From: Forficula auricularia
Taxonomy: Eukaryota; Arthropoda; Insecta; Dermaptera; Forficulidae
NCBI GenBank assembly: GCA_024734495.1
Contig: JALMQS010000267.1
Location: 372,001 to 436,000 of the forward strand
DNA: 64,000 nucleotides
Direction of reading: 5' to 3'
This document shows positions 2,080 through 63,680 of this stretch, in pieces. The notes below the pieces were generated by a model, which worked only from the letters and a program-made list of their open reading frames with translations, made no database searches and was not told the origin of the DNA. The translations under genes and the position numbers were made by a program. Numbering within the stretch: position 1 is the first letter of the stretch; each line of letters opens with the position of its first letter.

Positions 2080-2438
2080 AGATTAGCAATTATAGGTATA
2101 TATATATATATATATATATTCGAATATAAAAAGTAGTGACATCTATTATCAATCACGAATATTAAAGTATAAAAGCCAAGTAACAATTTTATATATAATT
2201 AATTTTTAATTGATTAAAAAGTTATATATTGTTTCTAAAATAATTAAATAATTAAATTTATTTTAATTAAATAATCGAAAATTGGATATCATAAACAATT
2301 AATTTTATTAATTGTTTACAAATAATAATTAAAATTGAAAGTAATGGAAGGCAGCCCAGAGGTAGTGAGGAAAGAAAAATTAACACATATAAAATAAGTT
2401 GTAATTTATTGGAATCCTTCTTCCTTTCCTTTCAAACC

Positions 2439-2470
2439 GACGTTTCGGAGGATTTTCCCTCCTTCTTCAG
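2439..2470 (-). ncRNA. Hammerhead-ribozyme-like motif, P1 family, left arm
   Basis: On the minus strand it reads CUGAAGA, one extra A, stem II GGAGG/CCUCC, GAA, palindromic ACGU, then C. The flanks CTTTGAAACC and GGTTTGAAAGG form stem I with one mismatch. CUGAAGA differs from the usual CUGAUGA at position 7, which is known to be variable. The 4-nt stem III implies dimeric folding, as known for PLE hammerheads. Confidence 0.6.
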
Positions 2471-2696
2471 GGTTTCAAAGGGTCAATGAATGAAACAAAT
2501 AAAATGTTTCCTTCTTCTCTCCACAGTAGCTTTCTTCATTTTTAACAAAAGGCATAGAAAGACAAAAAAAATTTTTCCCTTCTTTTCTTAATTAGATTTC
2601 TATGCCTTTTGTTAAAAATGAAGAAAGTTTTTGAACACTACTGTGGAGAGAAGAAGGAAACATTTTATTTGTTTCATTCATTGACCCTTTGAAACC

Positions 2697-2729
2697 CTGA
2701 AGAAGGAGGGAAAAATCCTCCGAAACGTC
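2697..2729 (+). ncRNA. Hammerhead-ribozyme-like motif, P1 family, right arm
   Basis: The same core lies on the plus strand: CUGAAGA at 2697-2703, stem II, and GAAACGUC at 2722-2729. Stem I is complete because the intron seen at 57695-57823 is absent. Together with the left-arm copy it gives two head-to-head ribozyme motifs. Confidence 0.6.
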
Positions 2730-3420
2730 GGTTTGAAAGAAAAGGAGGAAGGATTCCAATAAATTACACCTTATTTTATATGTGTTAATTTTTTTCTTCC
2801 TCACTACCTCTGGGCTGCCTTCCATTACTTTCAATTAAAATTTCTACCAGTCCGTCTCTCTCCAGAGAAAATTTCGTTGCAAAAAAATAATTAAAATAAT
2901 TAATTTAGAATCAAATAATCAAATATCAAATGTTATAATAGTCACAGATTAGCAATTATATATATACGAATATAAAAGGAGTGACATCTATTATCAATCA
3001 CGAATATTAAAGTATAAAAGCCAAGTAACAATTTTATATATAATTAATTTTTAATTGATTAAAAAGTTATATATTGTTTCTAAAATAATTAAATAATTAA
3101 ATTTATTTTAATTAAATAATTGAAAATTGGATATCATAAACAATTAATTTTATTAATTGTTTACAAAAAATAATTAAAATAATTAATTTAGAATCAAATA
3201 ATCAAATGATATAATAGTCACAGATTAGCAATTATATACTAGTATATACGAATATAAAAAGTAGTGACATCTATTATCAATCACGAAAAATAAAGTATGC
3301 AAGCCAAACAACAATTTTAAATATTTAATTTATTTTTAATTGATTAAAAAGTTAAATGTTGTTTCTAAAATTAGTAAATAAAGAAATTTAATTTATTTAA
3401 ATATTCGAAAATTAGATCTT

Positions 3421-12340: not shown

Positions 12341-12561
12341 TATGTAAATTTGTAAACTTAGCAACTCATTATTTAGGGCAGGGTAGCGATTTTCACCATT
12401 TTCAAAAAAACGCCTATAGTTCGAAAACTATGAGATTTTTATTAGTTGAATAAAAGATTTCACTGTCGATGGTAACAGAATTGTTTTTATTTTAGGTTAA
12501 AAATAAAATAAAATGAGAGTCTTCTGTTTTTTAAATAAAATAATTTTTAATTATTTCTAGA

Positions 12562-12596
12562 GACTATAGTTTCGAAGGCATTGCCTTCATCATCAG
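12562..12596 (-). ncRNA. Hammerhead-ribozyme-like motif, P2 family, left arm
   Basis: On the minus strand: CUGAUGA, one extra U, stem II GAAGGC/GCCUUC with loop AAU, GAA, palindromic ACUAUAGU, then C. Stem I pairs TAGA with TCTA and then TATTT with AAATA across an internal loop. The core matches the consensus except for the extra base before stem II. Confidence 0.6.
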
Positions 12597-12629
12597 TCTA
12601 TCACACTAATTTGAAATATTTGTGATAGA

Positions 12630-12663
12630 CTGATGATGAAGCAATGCCTTCGAAACTATAGTC
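12630..12663 (+). ncRNA. Hammerhead-ribozyme-like motif, P2 family, right arm
   Basis: CUGAUGA lies at 12630-12636 and GAAACUAUAGUC at 12652-12663. Stem II has lost one G relative to the left arm (GAAGC against GCCUUC), so this arm may be weaker. Confidence 0.5.
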
Positions 12664-13019
12664 TCTAGAAATAATTAAAAATTATTTTATTTAAAAAACA
12701 GAAGACTCTCTCATTTTATTTTTATTTTTAACATAAAATATGAGATTTTTATTAAAAAAAAAGCTCAGGACCTTCGTAAATTGCCCTATCCCCCGTTCAC
12801 GGTTTATCCTTGTGATACGGGACACCCTGTATAATATTTATTTATTCATTTTCGAAAATCTCAAACAATTATTTATTATTTTGTAATTAATTTTTTTGAT
12901 ATTTTGTTTGTTTCAGGATTCTGTGACTGAAAAACTACACTACACAACTCGTAGAACTATTGTAAGTACCTACCTACTTTTAATATCTCCCTATTATAAA
13001 AATTATTATTATTTTTTTT

Positions 13020-30020: not shown

Positions 30021-30410
30021 CCCTTTTTATACCTTTCCAGAGCAATAAGGACAATCTATTCTTAGCTTATCTTCCGAGATAATCTTAATCGGCTTAGAAT
30101 AGTATGTCATACTATTTTTACCCATCACTTTCAATTATTTAATAGTGCTTTAAAGCACACCATTCGATTTTAAGTCATCACTCCCAATTGTTTAACTATT
30201 CTCTCTTATCTAGAACATTCCATTATTTATGTTTAGATACATTCACAATAAAATAAAAATGAAATATAACTTGATTTATACTTTTATTCAATGTTTAGCA
30301 CCTGCTATTGCCATCATTTAGATGTATGACTGACAACAAAGATTTTAATATGATTGCAATTAAAAATAATATTAATACACGGAGGTTCTTTTCCTTGTCC
30401 CTTTTAAATC

Positions 30411-30442
30411 CTGAAGAAGGAGGTACGATCCTTCGAATTGTC
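30411..30442 (+). ncRNA. Decayed P1-type hammerhead-like motif (spliced form)
   Basis: CUGAAGA, extra A, GGAGG/UCCUU, GAA, UUGU, C. The preceding gtcccttttaaatc is colinear with the spliced P1 arrangement gaccctttgaaacc, with no intron between. Several pairs are lost, so it is probably inactive. Confidence 0.4.
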
Positions 30443-30599
30443 GGATTTTTTAATACACTGAAATTAATATTCTAATAAATTATTTTATAGAAAAATACCT
30501 TCAATTAATTAAATTTACATAATCTAATGTATAATAATATTTATAATGATCTATTAGTGGAATTTAAAATAAAAGAAACAAAATGAAATTATAAATTTT

Positions 30600-40006: not shown

Positions 40007-40400
40007 ATTAATTAAATTAATCTTAAGAAATTCAAAGAGAAATTCAAAGATGTTTTTATAAGGCGAAATTTAGAAGAATACTTAGCGAGACTACCGATTT
40101 TATAAGAACCATCGAGGTCCAGCTGATTCTCTATCCTGAACCGCTCTCTTGGTTCAGGATAGAGAATCAGCTGGACCTCAATGGTTCTTATAAAACGGTA
40201 GTCTCGCTAAGTATTCTCTAAATTTCGTCTTATAAAAACATCTTTGAATTTCTCTTTGAATTTCTTAAGATTAATTTAATTAATTTGATAATTTTCTATA
40301 TTTGTATAAATATACTAGAAAAACAAATTTACTTATAATTTGTTAAAAATTCCGTTGAGTGGATTTGCTCGCGAGTTTTACTCCGCGGAATTCTAAATTA
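40007..40400. mobile_element. Palindromic insertion with 14-bp target duplication
   Basis: Two arms of about 130 bp (40012-40142 and 40148-40283, blocks ttcaaagagaaattcaaaga and ggttcaggatagagaatcag) are followed by an unpaired tail of about 117 bp. ATCTATTATATATA flanks both sides (39993-40006 and 40401-40414). The layout of palindrome plus tail plus duplication matches the PLE foldbacks, but I see no hammerhead core here. Confidence 0.8.
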
Positions 40401-45289: not shown

Positions 45290-45400
45290 TTGTTCCCAGG
45301 TAACCACAATGTCCTAAGAATATTCTAAGGATATTCTAAGGACATTTAAATCTTCTTAGAATATTCTGAGGATATTGTGTGTTACCTGGGTTAAGCAATT
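45290..45400. repeat. Hairpin element with CCCAGGTAAC ends
   Basis: Inverted ends CCCAGGTAACCACAATGTCC and complement gtgttacctggg surround repeated TATTCTAAGGA/TCTTAGAATATTC motifs. It is about 105 bp and capable of one long hairpin. Confidence 0.65.
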
Positions 45401-51114: not shown

Positions 51115-51435
51115 AATTTTTTATATATTGAAGGAGACAATAAAAGAGTGTGTCTTCTGCTGGAATTATAAATTTTATTTATTTATAACGAGACTATAGT
51201 TTCGAGGAGCTTTGCCCTCTTCATCAGTCTATTACAATGTATTCACAGAAATTAATTTATGAATGAAAGTGCTTGTTCATTCATAAATTAATTCCTGTGA
51301 ATACGTTGTACAAGACTGATCGAAGGATGAAGAGGTAAAAAGCCCTCGAAACTATAGCTAGTCTCGTTATAAATAAATAAAATTTATACTCCCAGCGTGA
51401 AGACATCACTCTTTTATTGTCTCCTTCCAATTCTA
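51115..51435. mobile_element. P2 PLE-like foldback
   Basis: Arms run from tattgaaggagacaataaaa (51127) inward through cttctgctggaattataaat, and back out at 51360-51430 with the right arm diverged. The left arm has a good hammerhead core on the minus strand. The right arm core is broken (gactgatcgaaggatgaaga). The sequence outside 51127 continues with ctactcggcaaaaac-type sequence also found at 46.43 and 63.04 kb. Confidence 0.75.
51192..51227 (-). ncRNA. Hammerhead-ribozyme-like motif, P2 family
   Basis: On the minus strand: CUGAUGA, extra A, stem II GAGG/CCUC with loop GCAAAGCU, GAA, palindromic ACUAUAGU, C. Stem I can pair GA/TC and then TTGTAA with TTATAA across a small internal loop. It has the consensus CUGAUGA core. 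Confidence 0.6.
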
Positions 51436-54787: not shown

Positions 54788-55142
54788 AATAATAATATAA
54801 GTGAGATAGGTGGAATTAATCAAATTGTATTTCATATACAAAAATGTTTTGCATTATATAGTGAACAAAAGAACACATTATTTTTGAATATCAACCCTTA
54901 AACAACCAAGATAAGGGCGTCTTTTTGATTGTTCTACAAGATTATCAAAATTACAGTTTGATTTCAACTACAAACTCGGTTAATTTTCAACCAAATTTAA
55001 AAAAATAAAATGTCGTTTTATTCAGAATAATATGGTAAACAATATTTCATTATTCGTGTCCATGATTAATAATAAAAGGAATCGTAGGGAGTTGGACAAG
55101 ACTTTAAATTAAATTAAATACAAGTTTTGATTAAATATGCCA

Positions 55143-55173
55143 TACGTTTCGTTGCTATTTGCAACTTCTTCAG
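55143..55173 (-). ncRNA. Hammerhead-ribozyme-like motif, P3 family, left arm
   Basis: On the minus strand: CUGAAGA, extra A, stem II GUUGC/GCAAC with loop AAAUA, GAA, palindromic ACGU, A. Stem I is AAUGAGCCA with UGGCAUAUU: nine positions with one mismatch and one wobble. This is the best-preserved P3 copy. Confidence 0.6.
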
Positions 55174-55197
55174 TGGCTCATTTAATTAAATGAGCCA

Positions 55198-55228
55198 CTG
55201 AAGAAGTACAAAATAGCAACGAAACGTA
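55198..55228 (+). ncRNA. Hammerhead-ribozyme-like motif, P3 family, right arm
   Basis: CUGAAGA is at 55198-55204 and GAAACGUA at 55221-55228. Stem II is damaged (GUAC against GCAAC). Confidence 0.45.
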
Positions 55229-55690
55229 TGGCATATTTAATCAAAACTTGTATTTAATTTAATTTAAAGTCTTGTCCAACTCCCTACGATTCCTTTGATT
55301 AATATGGTAAACATTTCATATAATAAAATCATATTTAATAGAACCAATATATATTGAGATATCTACTCTTATTAAACGAGCAAAAATTGTTTGTATATAT
55401 ATTTATATATATATTTGTATCTTGGTTCTATTTTGAAAACGACTTTACCGATTTTGATGAAACAAATTGTATTAACAAGTTTTGAGGATGTGAAAGCAAT
55501 CTGGCTAGGTCTGGACCTCGGCAAATTTCATCTTAATTGATCTTTTCTCATTTAAAGTAATTATTGATAGATGAAAATCTCAATAAAAAAGTTTGTTTAC
55601 ATTTTTTTCAATTATCTTTTATTTTTAATTGGTTTTTTAATTTTAAAACCCACTAATAGGTTATAGCAAATATTAATATATTATTTTTTT

Positions 55691-56233
55691 GCAACAAAAT
55701 TTTCTCTGGAGAGAGACGGACTGGTAGAAATTTTAATTGATAAATACTACCCAAAAATCAGTGACCTATTAAAAAAACTTCTCTCTGTGGGCCGGGTTAG
55801 TGTCGCGCTAAAACCAACAAATACGATCAACTAGTTATTCAACCAAAAACACAAGTTGGAATTAAAGATGAGTACTGGCGTGGTCTATATGATTGAATGT
55901 AACGGAGACGGAGTGCTGCCATGTAATAAAATGTACATAGGTCAAACAAAACGACGACTAGGTGAGAGAATACGAGAACACGAACTATCTATCTCAAAAA
56001 TAATTGGAAACAATACGGCCCTTGCAAATCATGCCCAAGAGAAAAAACACCAATTTAATTTTAACAATTTCAAAGTTCAATTTTATGAACGAAATTATTT
56101 TAAAAGAAGAATCTTGGAAATGATTTGCATAAAAAATCTCTCACATCGCGCCGTAAATGATAGATCGGACGTGTTGGATTTGAATATATGCTATGACGGA
56201 ATTGTGAATGGATTGAAATTGATCAATGAATGA
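55691..56233 (+). pseudogene. PLE reverse transcriptase C-terminus plus GIY-YIG endonuclease
   Basis: One frame runs from 55691: FSLERDGLVEILI, then SVGRVSVALKPTNTIN, a TAG stop at 55832-55834, and onward into the GIY-YIG domain. That domain has GVVYMI (the GIY block), YIGQTKRRLGERIREH (YIG block plus the conserved Arg and His) and a downstream Glu-containing helix. Among retroelements this domain is the hallmark of Penelope-like elements, where it nicks target DNA for primed reverse transcription. The RT catalytic core lies outside the truncated copy, and the in-frame stop separates RT and EN. The endonuclease part alone (125 codons, 55856-56233) is uninterrupted and looks recently active. 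The minus-strand frame at 56141-56467 is a shadow. Confidence 0.85.
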
Positions 56234-56622
56234 ATGAGTTGTAAATAATAGAATTTCGCTATTCTGTGGATTTGTATATTGTATTGTATATGTTAAAAAA
56301 AATATTGTATATATGTATAGATATGTAAGGATTATGATAAATGAATTGATCAATGAACGAATGAAGTATAGATGTAAATATGATATATATTTGTATGAAT
56401 TGTGAATGTATGTTGTATATTTGTGTATAAAAAAAAAAAAAAAAATTTGAATAAGTGAATTGATCAATTAACGAATAAGGTGTGAATTGTGGAATTGTAG
56501 CTAATTGTACATTTTGTATGTTGGGTGATATGAACCAACCATACTATTTGAGAATATGTTAATAACTAATCCCAGTACGCACTCTTGTGCGCATCTGTCA
56601 TAGAATGGGTTTGGTCTATATA

Positions 56623-57536
56623 CAGGGTGCTTCAAAAAAATGTATACACAATTTGAACTTCCATAGAAAATTTATTTACCGTTCTACAAAGTTAAATTTC
56701 AGGAAAATAGAAAGCTGAAAGTCCAATGTAAATGAAACATAAATAACAAATGTTAATACTGTTCAAATTGGTGACCTGCAGCATCAATACAATTCTGAGT
56801 ACGAGTCACCACTGATTCTGTACATCGTATCAAAACGTCCAATGAGATTTCTCTACACACTGCTTGAATCTCATTCCAAAGAATGTCTAGGTTACGTGGT
56901 TTACGTTTGTACACCTCATCTTTTACTGTGCCCCACAAGAAGAAATCCAGTGGTGTAAGGTCTGGAGAGCGTGCTGGAAACTCGATTGGCCCCCTGCGTC
57001 CTATCCACTGGCCCGACAAATTTTGATCCAGGTAAGCTCGTACGTCCCTGTGATAGTGCGGCGGGGCACCATCTTGTTGAAAATAAAAATCATCATTACC
57101 GTATAATGCACGAATGGCAGGAAATATGGAATCAGCAAGCATTGTTAGGTAATTAATACCAGTTACAGTGCCTTCAAATCGAAAAGGTCCAATGAGTCCC
57201 CTTGAAGACAAACCGCACCACACATTTACACCAGGCAAATTTACAGCTTTTTCAATTGTAATGTGAGGATTTTCTTCACCCCAGTAAACACAATTGTGCC
57301 TATTGACAGTTCCATTAAGTTTGAATTGGGCTTCATCCGACCAAATGATGCTACCCATAAATCCCGGTTCACGTTTGCTGCAGGTCACCAATTTGAACAG
57401 TATTAACATTTGTTATTTATGTTTCATTTACATTGGACTTTCAGCTTTCTATTTTCCTGAAATTTAACTTTGTAGAACGGTAAATAAATTTTCTATGGAA
57501 GTTCAAAGTGTGTATACATTTTTTTGAAGCACCCTG
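56623..57536 (-). mobile_element. DD41D-type Tc1/mariner-like transposon, rearranged
   Basis: It is flanked by TA (56621-56622 and 57537-57538). The inverted repeats are 160 bp on both sides (56623-56782 and 57377-57536), beginning CAGGGTGCTTCAAAAAAATG. The arms include the transposase C-terminal codons and stop (HQFEQY end), so the right arm is a copied inversion of the 3' end replacing the N-terminal half of the gene. Length 914 bp. Confidence 0.85.
56753..57376 (-). pseudogene. DD41D transposase, N-terminus missing
   Basis: About 207 residues of the catalytic domain remain in one open frame. First Asp: IIWSDEAQF. Second: [13 protein letters not shown]. Third: [13 protein letters not shown]. 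There are 41 residues between the last two, placing it in the DD41D group of the Tc1/mariner superfamily. The usual ~340 residues include an N-terminal paired-like HTH, here deleted. The frame can be extended to an ATG at 57409 only through the inverted terminal copy ([10 protein letters not shown]). It cannot bind its TIRs as a normal transposase. The plus-strand frame at 56971 is a shadow. Confidence 0.9.
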
Positions 57537-57694
57537 TATATTAGATTCAAAAGCCATTTAGTCATCTAATTAAGAAAAGAAGGAAAAAAAAATTGTCTTT
57601 CTATGCCTTTTGTTAAAAATGAAGAAAGTTTTTGAACACTACTGTGGAGAGAAGAAGGAAACATTTTATTTGTTTCATTCATTGACCCTTTGAA

Positions 57695-57823
57695 GTGAGT
57701 AAATTTATATTTTTTTCTATTGATAATATAGCTGTTTACATTGTATTTATAATTGTATTGTTTTATTGTTGAAATGTATGATGACCAACCCCATTTTTAT
57801 AATTTTGTCATATTGGTTTATAG
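57695..57823 (+). other. Intron in PLE terminal region (129 bp)
   Basis: The sequence ctttgaa is followed by GTGAGT, and ggtttatag precedes accctgaagaagg. The foldback arms at 2.4-2.7 kb read ctttgaaaccctgaagaagg with exactly this segment missing, so it was removed as a GT-AG intron. Introns in Penelope-like elements are known. This one lies directly upstream of the ribozyme core and splits the 5' strand of stem I. Confidence 0.85.
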
Positions 57824-57826
57824 ACC

Positions 57827-57859
57827 CTGAAGAAGGAGGGAAAAATCCTCCGAAACGTC
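57827..57859 (+). ncRNA. Hammerhead-ribozyme-like motif, P1 family, intron-containing copy
   Basis: CUGAAGA (57827-57833), extra A, stem II GGAGG/CCUCC, GAA, palindromic ACGU, C (57859). The 3' strand of stem I is GGUUUGAAAGG (57860-57870). Its partner CCUUUGAAACC exists only when 57694 is joined to 57824. Unspliced, only the ACC next to the core pairs. Confidence 0.6.
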
Positions 57860-58452
57860 GGTTTGAAAGGAAAGGAGGAAGGATTCCAATAAATTACACC
57901 TTATTTTATATGTGTTAATTTTTTTCTTTCCTCACTACCTCTGGGCTGCCTTCCATTACTTTCAATTAATATATTATATTAAAATTAGGAATTTTTTGTT
58001 TGTTTTTAATTAACAGGTGCCTAAATCATAACAAAACAGGTGTGTTTACAAATAAAGTTGTTCAAGCGGTTTTTTTTATTTAATTTGAAAACAAATCTTA
58101 TTTAATTTTATGTTTTTATTTTAAATCCTATACGATTATTTTTTTATTATTATTTTCCTTTATTATTTATTTTTTTATAATGTTTATCAATATGAACGAA
58201 TGTGGGCAAATTGGTGTACGAGTAAACAAATAGGTAAACACATAATATATATGTGGATAACTAGAAAGCTAGAAATGCAAAAACTGGGTGCGGGGTGGGG
58301 TGAATATGAGAGGTGCAGGAGGTGGGGTGCATTTGTGGAAGATCCGGAGGTGGTTGGGGTGGCGTGGGGCGGAGTGAGGGTGCAGTGGTGGGGCGAGGTG
58401 TCAAGGGGTGGTCAGGGGTTACCGTGCATCGCTCGGCGGCTCCAGGTACTAT

Positions 58453-63050: not shown

Positions 63051-63388
63051 CTTGATATTTAATACTATTAATTGTTAATAATTTAAAATTTCTTAAAATT
63101 AAAATAATAATAATAATAAAGTGTCATATATTATATCATTGGATTCAAAAAAAAATCTTATTTAGTAGCCCTTAAATTTAAAATTTCGCATTAAATTTAA
63201 AAAATCTATATAATAAAAATGAATTTCTGTTTCTTTGTAAGCGCAGATCTCTCAAATGCCTGGACCGATTTGGCTAATTTTTTTTTAATATTTCATTATT
63301 CGTGTCCATGATTAATAATTAAAGGAATCGTAGGGAGTTGGACAAGATTTTAAATTAAATTAAATATAAGTTTTGATTAAATATGCCA

Positions 63389-63420
63389 TACGTTTCGTTG
63401 TTGTTTTGCAACTTCTTCAG
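63389..63420 (-). ncRNA. Hammerhead-ribozyme-like motif, P3 family
   Basis: On the minus strand: CUGAAGA, extra A, GUUGC/GCAAC-type stem II (loop AAAACAA with shifts), GAA, ACGU, A. Stem I UGGC pairs with a damaged partner (GAGCCCUGAAGA), so it is weaker than the 55.1 kb copy. Confidence 0.45.
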
Positions 63421-63543
63421 GGCTCATTTATTAAACTTATTTGTCAGATTTTTAACTAAGAAAACTAATAGAAAAAAGAATACTGTTTGAAATGTTTTTT
63501 CTCTAGTTAAAAATCCTGACAAATAAGTTTAATAAATGAGCCA

Positions 63544-63575
63544 CTGAGGAAGTTACAAAACAGCAACGAAACGTA
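63544..63575 (+). ncRNA. Hammerhead-like motif, P3 family, altered core
   Basis: The core reads CUGAGGA in place of CUGAAGA. GAAACGUA is intact and stem I GCCA/UGGC is intact. Position 7 tolerates change in hammerheads, so activity is not excluded. Confidence 0.45.
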
Positions 63576-63680
63576 TGGCATATTTAATCAAAACTTGTAT
63601 TTAATTTTTTTTAATGTTCGTAATAGTCCAATTCAGGTTAATACGTAAAAAAAAATTGTAAAAATTCGGGAAAAACTAAA

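Follow-up and report, generated by a model that had tools for sequence, protein, structure and literature searches.

An intron-like GT-AG segment splits stem I of a predicted hammerhead in a likely Penelope-like terminal repeat of Forficula auricularia

In the DNA of Forficula auricularia, a minimal hammerhead motif carries a GT-AG segment of 129 nt in its stem I, within the 5' strand. The hammerhead belongs to a terminal repeat of a likely Penelope-like element in the 64-kb window (the whole stretch of DNA analysed, 64,000 nt, to which all positions refer). The layout of the pairing is real: the intron-like segment splits stem I, intronless copies are in exact register, and the predicted fold needs the segment to be removed. 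Based on the sequence and on folding models, roughly even odds (about 0.5) can be given to the reading that this is a Penelope-like repeat with a minimal hammerhead, in which removal of the intron would assemble stem I and license self-cleavage of the RNA. The features are listed in Table 1.

Table 1. Positions of the repeat and its parts, of the intronless copies and of the associated reading frame
Feature	Position	Strand	Basis and remarks
Terminal repeat (pLTR) copy with intron and hammerhead	57548–57967	+	Limits set by BLAST against the foldback arms and by comparing the copy ends; AATAAA at 57888
Stem I, 5' strand, outer 8 nt (CCUUUGAA); the upstream exon ends here	57687–57694	+	Faces 57863–57870 once joined to ACC, 7 of 8 pairs
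129-nt GT-AG segment, likely spliceosomal intron	57695–57823	+	Exactly missing from both arms at 2333–2836; blunt junction
Stem I, 5' strand, inner 3 nt (ACC); the downstream exon starts here	57824–57826	+	Pairs with 57860–57862
Hammerhead core: CUGAAGA, extra A, stem II GGAGGG/UCCUCC, GAAA, loop-less stem III ACGU, C17	57827–57859	+	Motif scan with shuffles; folds
3' strand of stem I (GGUUUGAAAGG)	57860–57870	+	Folds; comparison of copies
Right foldback arm, intronless copy	2597–2836	+	Flanks fused at 2693/2694; hammerhead core 2697–2729; BLAST and end comparison
Left foldback arm, intronless copy	2333–2611	-	Flanks fused at 2474/2473; hammerhead core 2470–2439; BLAST and end comparison
Decayed intronless copy spanning the junction	30391–30447	+	80.7% over 57 nt to 2490–2434, E 3.6e-10; core mutated (GAAUUGUC)
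End of a reading frame that lacks its 5' part, with one in-frame stop; likely the element's GIY-YIG endonuclease	55787–56233	+	tblastn with P0001; upstream of the repeat

The GT-AG segment and the copies without it

The segment starts with GTGAGT and ends with TTTATAG. It is preceded by CCTTTGAA and followed by ACC, after which come the core CTGAAGAAGGAGGGAAAAATCCTCCGAAACGTC and then GGTTTGAAAGG. When nucleotides 57540–57960 are compared with the 64-kb window by BLAST, both flanks are found joined directly, without the segment, in the two arms of a foldback. The junction TTTGAA/GTGAGT...TTATAG/ACCCTG corresponds to TTTGAAACCCTG (TTTGAA ACCCTG) in both arms, and is blunt and unambiguous. Neither microhomology nor a target duplication is seen at the junction in comparison with both arms. 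The flanks in the right arm are 100% identical to the 57.6-kb copy over 97 nt and 98.5% over 137 nt (BLAST); those in the left arm are 85% identical over 150 columns (gapped) and 96% over 137 (BLAST). Around the junction, the 57.6-kb copy and the arms are 96–100% identical. The exact absence from both arms and the blunt junction agree with the original prediction that a GT-AG segment splits the 5' strand of stem I and that the foldback, at 2333–2836, has the spliced arrangement in both arms. The two arms are not simple mirror images, as they differ by a 10-nt gap and several changes and have different start points in the repeat.

Four hammerheads of this family (family A) are present in the window. 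One of them (57827) contains the segment, and three (2697 on the plus strand, 2470 on the minus strand, and 30411) are without it. The copy at 30411, which had been put forward as decayed and spliced-like, indeed matches the left arm in an alignment spanning the junction. Seven loose matches to the branch-point pattern YTNAY are found in the segment, whose sequence is AT-rich, and the nearest usable one is at -28. With its GT-AG ends and its exact absence from presumed processed copies, the segment is likely to be a spliceosomal intron. The simplest reading of the copies with and without it is that the intron was taken out of some templates.

In the three young copies the common sequence extends as far as TTTCAATT, 106–108 nt past the predicted cut site (57859/57860), and the intronless foldback arms are unbroken 106–107 nt past it. 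Since the arms continue through the cut site, any spliced RNA from which they were copied was reverse transcribed uncut there. In the element of Anolis, according to the excerpts of PMC11167929, reverse transcription starts 111–118 bp into a frame beginning 26 bp before the cut. By subtraction this is 85–92 nt past the cut, an arrangement similar to that of the copy ends here.

The element is likely Penelope-like, judging from its sequence. The inverted pair at 2333–2836 fits head-to-head terminal repeats of the Penelope type, and no full-length unit of repeat, reading frame and repeat is seen within the window. The 57.6-kb copy itself is cut short, upstream of the endonuclease, and the claim concerns its family. 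The C-terminal GIY-YIG endonuclease of Penelope elements is recognized by way of homologues only. No Pfam GIY-YIG match was obtained for the window reading frame or for its closest homologue, P0001, whereas PF01541 is matched by all five of the more distant homologues scanned (15 were found), two of them above the cut-off (P0007 and P0013). One homologue, from the ant Ooceraea biroi, is named GIY-YIG domain-containing protein. The AlphaFold model of the endonuclease has a mean pLDDT of 31.

Other sequences are found around these features. A 60-bp sequence at 2831–2890, after the right foldback arm, recurs inverted (98%) at 55681–55740, before the truncated endonuclease, and may be an optional tail of the element. 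Between the endonuclease and the terminal repeat lies an inserted transposon (56618–57541) whose inverted ends of 166 nt are 99% complementary. Its reading frame of 218 aa looks mariner-like and has no Pfam match at 1e-3. Matches to Rfam microRNA families at 40114–40179, 12560–12665 and 55124–55247 are below the cut-offs and lie on palindromes or foldbacks, and they are weak evidence of microRNAs.

The hammerhead motif and its pairing

The elements of a minimal type I hammerhead, CUGANGA, stem II, GAAA, NUH and stem I, are found in order at this site. Once the segment is removed, CCUUUGAAACC faces GGUUUGAAAGG with 10 of the 11 positions paired, a G-G mismatch in the middle of the stem and a duplex energy of -11.1 kcal/mol, as had been predicted for the pairing. 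In the right foldback arm the outermost pair is lost. By chance, 10 of 11 is reached by 1.4% of 200,000 random 8-mers (window composition, exonic ACC given, wobble allowed). The companion statement, that ACC alone pairs before removal, is wrong. In the unspliced RNA, UAGACC faces GGUUUG in six contiguous pairs (two of them G-U), because the 3' splice site contributes UAG, and 9 of 11 positions pair in total, wobbles included. The unspliced duplex reaches -4.2 kcal/mol. The same six pairs would be kept by any intron ending with UAG here, and 9 of 11 is reached by 32% of random ends.

The plain pattern of the hammerhead core has 11 matches in the window. A stricter scan, in which stems I and II each have at least four contiguous pairs and one extra nucleotide is permitted before stem II, finds six places, against one match in total in 100 dinucleotide-preserving shuffles. 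The extra nucleotide is present in all six, and the five places that fail include three of the four of family B, described below. The Rfam hammerhead models gave no match to any copy searched; variants with a loop-less stem III may be beyond the reach of these models. The extra nucleotide before stem II may make the hammerhead slower. A minimal stem III and insertions of 1–2 nt beside CUGANGA occur in accepted hammerheads, based on the excerpts of PMC7761336 and PMC10085705.

Stem III in GAAACGUC is ACGU without a loop. It is self-complementary, and can be closed by two molecules, not by one; therefore cleavage would have to be dimeric. A diminished stem III is reported for hammerheads of Penelope-like elements (PMC7761336). 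The 3' half of stem III is continuous with the cut site and, beyond it, with the 3' strand of stem I, and stem I would therefore form between the same two copies. By this geometry, the intron of one copy would control cutting at its partner's site and not at its own. A third type of hammerhead, with a palindromic ACTATAGT as stem III, is seen as an inverted pair at 12560–12665, which passes the stricter scan, and as a single copy at 51197–51227 (minus strand), which fails it. These sequences suggest dimeric hammerheads of another element.

Family B consists of two foldbacks, 55067–55304 and 63313–63617 (CTGAAGAAGTTGC...GCAACGAAACGTATGGC), with head-to-head inverted, intronless copies. They have the same register of stem I and the same extra nucleotide before stem II as family A. 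Seven natural intronless hammerheads were aligned: the two arms and 30411, which belong to family A, and four from family B (55143–55228 and 63389–63575). This alignment excludes the intron-bearing copy, the match at 45366 and the third type (12.6 and 51.2 kb). Of its cells, 80.8% pair in the spliced register, against 34–44% after shifting the partner by 1–3 columns. Changes on both sides are seen at 7 of 16 pairs, and are largely one split between families A and B. None of 500 shuffles equals the real alignment in the proportion of paired cells, in the count of two-sided cells or in the covariation score; two other measures, the pairs with a two-sided change (213/500) and the further pair types (258/500), are not above the shuffles. 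Pairing of stems I and II by two-sided changes between the families indicates that the fold was maintained at least until families A and B split.

Folding predicts no stem I in 30411 or in the family B copy at 55198. For 55198, its own foldback is the probable competitor in the folded stretch. Compensatory changes of stem I in 30411 were considered and dropped, as this copy has A-A and U-U positions in the aligned register.

Public collections, which possibly exclude the host genome, were also searched, and the results are not informative about that genome. A hammerhead pattern has 7 matches in a collection of viral contigs, 6 of them in loci of 0.56–0.66 G+C, and another has 20 matches in genome contigs, all bacterial by record title. 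No similar stem I is seen by eye in the flanking 20–40 nt, and these matches were taken for chance rather than relatives. Two further patterns have no matches in the viral collection. The endonuclease scan gave one matching stretch, which encodes no relative.

Predicted effect of splicing and alternative explanations

The probability of the inner stem I pairs is 0.98–0.99 in the joined RNA and at most 0.19 in the unspliced RNA in a 265-nt context; in a local context of 92 nt, with 30 nt of upstream sequence, the unspliced values are 0.29–0.37. At 25 C they are 0.99 joined and 0.05 unspliced. The whole hammerhead fold within one RNA has a probability of 0.66–0.68 when spliced, against 0.11–0.13 when unspliced, and the predicted gate within one RNA is partial, about 5- to 6-fold. 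A large gate, 7.5–9.7 kcal/mol, is predicted for the dimer: over four upstream lengths, the half-site assembles with -8.3 to -11.5 kcal/mol when spliced, compared with -0.8 to -1.8 kcal/mol when unspliced. The exact dimer hammerhead fold is a minor state (0.04 of the complex spliced, 0.001 unspliced), and a different mode of binding, worth -5.0 to -5.7 kcal/mol, is left to the unspliced halves. All fold energies are nearest-neighbour estimates, with tertiary contacts and protein outside the model.

The original prediction that splicing gates cleavage is partly supported, in that the predicted fold needs removal of the segment. It has to be modified in three points: not ACC alone pairs before removal, the predicted gate within one RNA is partial, and the site of the partner would be gated instead of the own site. 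The mechanism could be as follows. Splicing would remove the 129-nt segment and assemble stem I at 10 of 11 pairs. Two hammerheads would pair via ACGU, stem I would then form between the copies, and the spliced copy would cut its partner. An RNA retaining the intron would assemble poorly and stay whole. After splicing, two repeats in one transcript, or two transcripts, could cut each other. The fuller version, in which the unspliced RNA is the whole template that carries the intron on and the spliced RNAs cut one another in pairs via the palindromic ACGU, is rather doubtful on the present models. If true, it would explain why these retroelements keep introns and what purpose weak dimeric hammerheads have. 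An intron within a ribozyme would link these two puzzles, the kept introns and the role of the minimal hammerhead, through one simple switch that lends itself to testing. It would also make the spliceosome the assembler of a natural self-cleaving ribozyme.

The gate is plausible from the models, and any benefit to the element is hypothetical. The excerpts of PMC11167929 report that, for the Anolis element, uncut RNA is the dominant substrate of insertion in vitro, which fits a use for a gate. The same source reports that hammerhead mutants insert normally, that the hammerhead requires the protein of the element, and that no reads begin or end at the cut site. Against the gate, the window has a sole intron-bearing copy, and the copies to compare it with are one decayed copy and the two arms of a single foldback. 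The intronless state of family B also speaks against it and would fit a recent gain of the intron.

It is possible that the segment is an ordinary intron in the untranslated part of the terminal repeat, and that its position in stem I is incidental. The hammerhead would then be rarely or never active, and splicing would serve expression or nothing. Introns are reported in these repeats (PMC11722881), the intronless copies passed the cut site uncut, and insertion of the Anolis element in vitro does not need its hammerhead (PMC11167929). Clear tuning of the intron is not seen among 200 shuffled introns, 66% of which leave stem I at or above the level of the real one. The median for the tested inner stem I pair is 0.46 with shuffled introns, against 0.18 with the real intron, which is predicted to block stem I more than most shuffles, not exceptionally. 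Against an incidental position, when the real intron is moved along the joined sequence in steps of three bases (41 positions), the tested inner pair falls below 0.5 at only seven of them, and two of these flank the real site (0.18). The pairing of stems I and II, kept by two-sided changes between the two families, is also against this reading.

A recent gain, where the intronless hammerhead is ancestral, the 129-bp segment was inserted in one lineage or copy and the foldback copies were never spliced, is unlikely. The segment is in only one copy in the window, and the most diverged copy (30411) and all four aligned family B hammerheads are intronless, as this explanation expects. Against it, the junction has neither a target duplication nor microhomology, the ends are canonical (GTGAGT and TAG), and no second copy of the segment is found within the window beyond four short partial matches (16–43 nt). 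A mere likeness to a hammerhead, due to chance or decay and with nothing to gate, is very improbable: the missing Rfam match, the extra nucleotide between CUGANGA and stem II and the zero-loop stem III would suit it, but six places against one match in 100 shuffled windows, the two-sided changes in both stems and the like features of accepted hammerheads (PMC7761336, PMC10085705) argue against it.

Comparison with known systems

Introns in Penelope elements and hammerheads in their terminal repeats were both taken as established in the original prediction, and the excerpts of the literature bear this out. Penelope repeats contain spliceosomal introns (PMC11722881), and also minimal hammerheads in tandem, which may cut as dimers (PMC7761336). 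For retroelements, it is unusual to keep introns as Penelope-like elements do, and intron retention has been discussed (PMC3846280). The role of their minimal hammerheads was called a mystery (PMC7761336).

The hammerhead described here shares with those of Penelope elements the location in the terminal repeat, the diminished stem III and the proposed dimeric action (PMC7761336). It differs in the GT-AG segment that splits stem I; no hammerhead is so described in the excerpts compared. The intron is likewise similar to those of Penelope-like elements in that it is in the terminal repeat and kept in at least one genomic copy (PMC11722881, PMC3846280). It differs in that intron-bearing and exactly intronless copies coexist, and in lying within a ribozyme motif. 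Among the literature matches listed, in excerpt, neither an intron within a hammerhead stem nor a self-cleaving ribozyme assembled by splicing is described; the primary papers on hammerheads and introns (Cervera and De la Pena 2014, Lunse 2017, Craig 2021, Arkhipova 2003, Schostak 2008) are outside this comparison. The claim to novelty of an intron inside a hammerhead stem is therefore weak.

Like the introns and hammerheads of Penelope repeats, RNA-processing stems assembled by splicing are already known. In a fission yeast snoRNA precursor, a hairpin cleaved by the RNase III Pac1 spans an exon-exon junction, and the structure for cleavage is present only after splicing, which orders the processing (PMC12508059, in excerpt). 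There the cut is made by a protein nuclease and was shown by experiment, whereas here the RNA itself is predicted to cut. In a microRNA precursor of Solanaceae, as in miR444, an intron separates the strands of the stem, and its removal is needed for efficient processing (PMC11706861, in excerpt). That case concerns the processing of a microRNA from a host gene, and the present one would concern the self-cleaving ribozyme of a retroelement.
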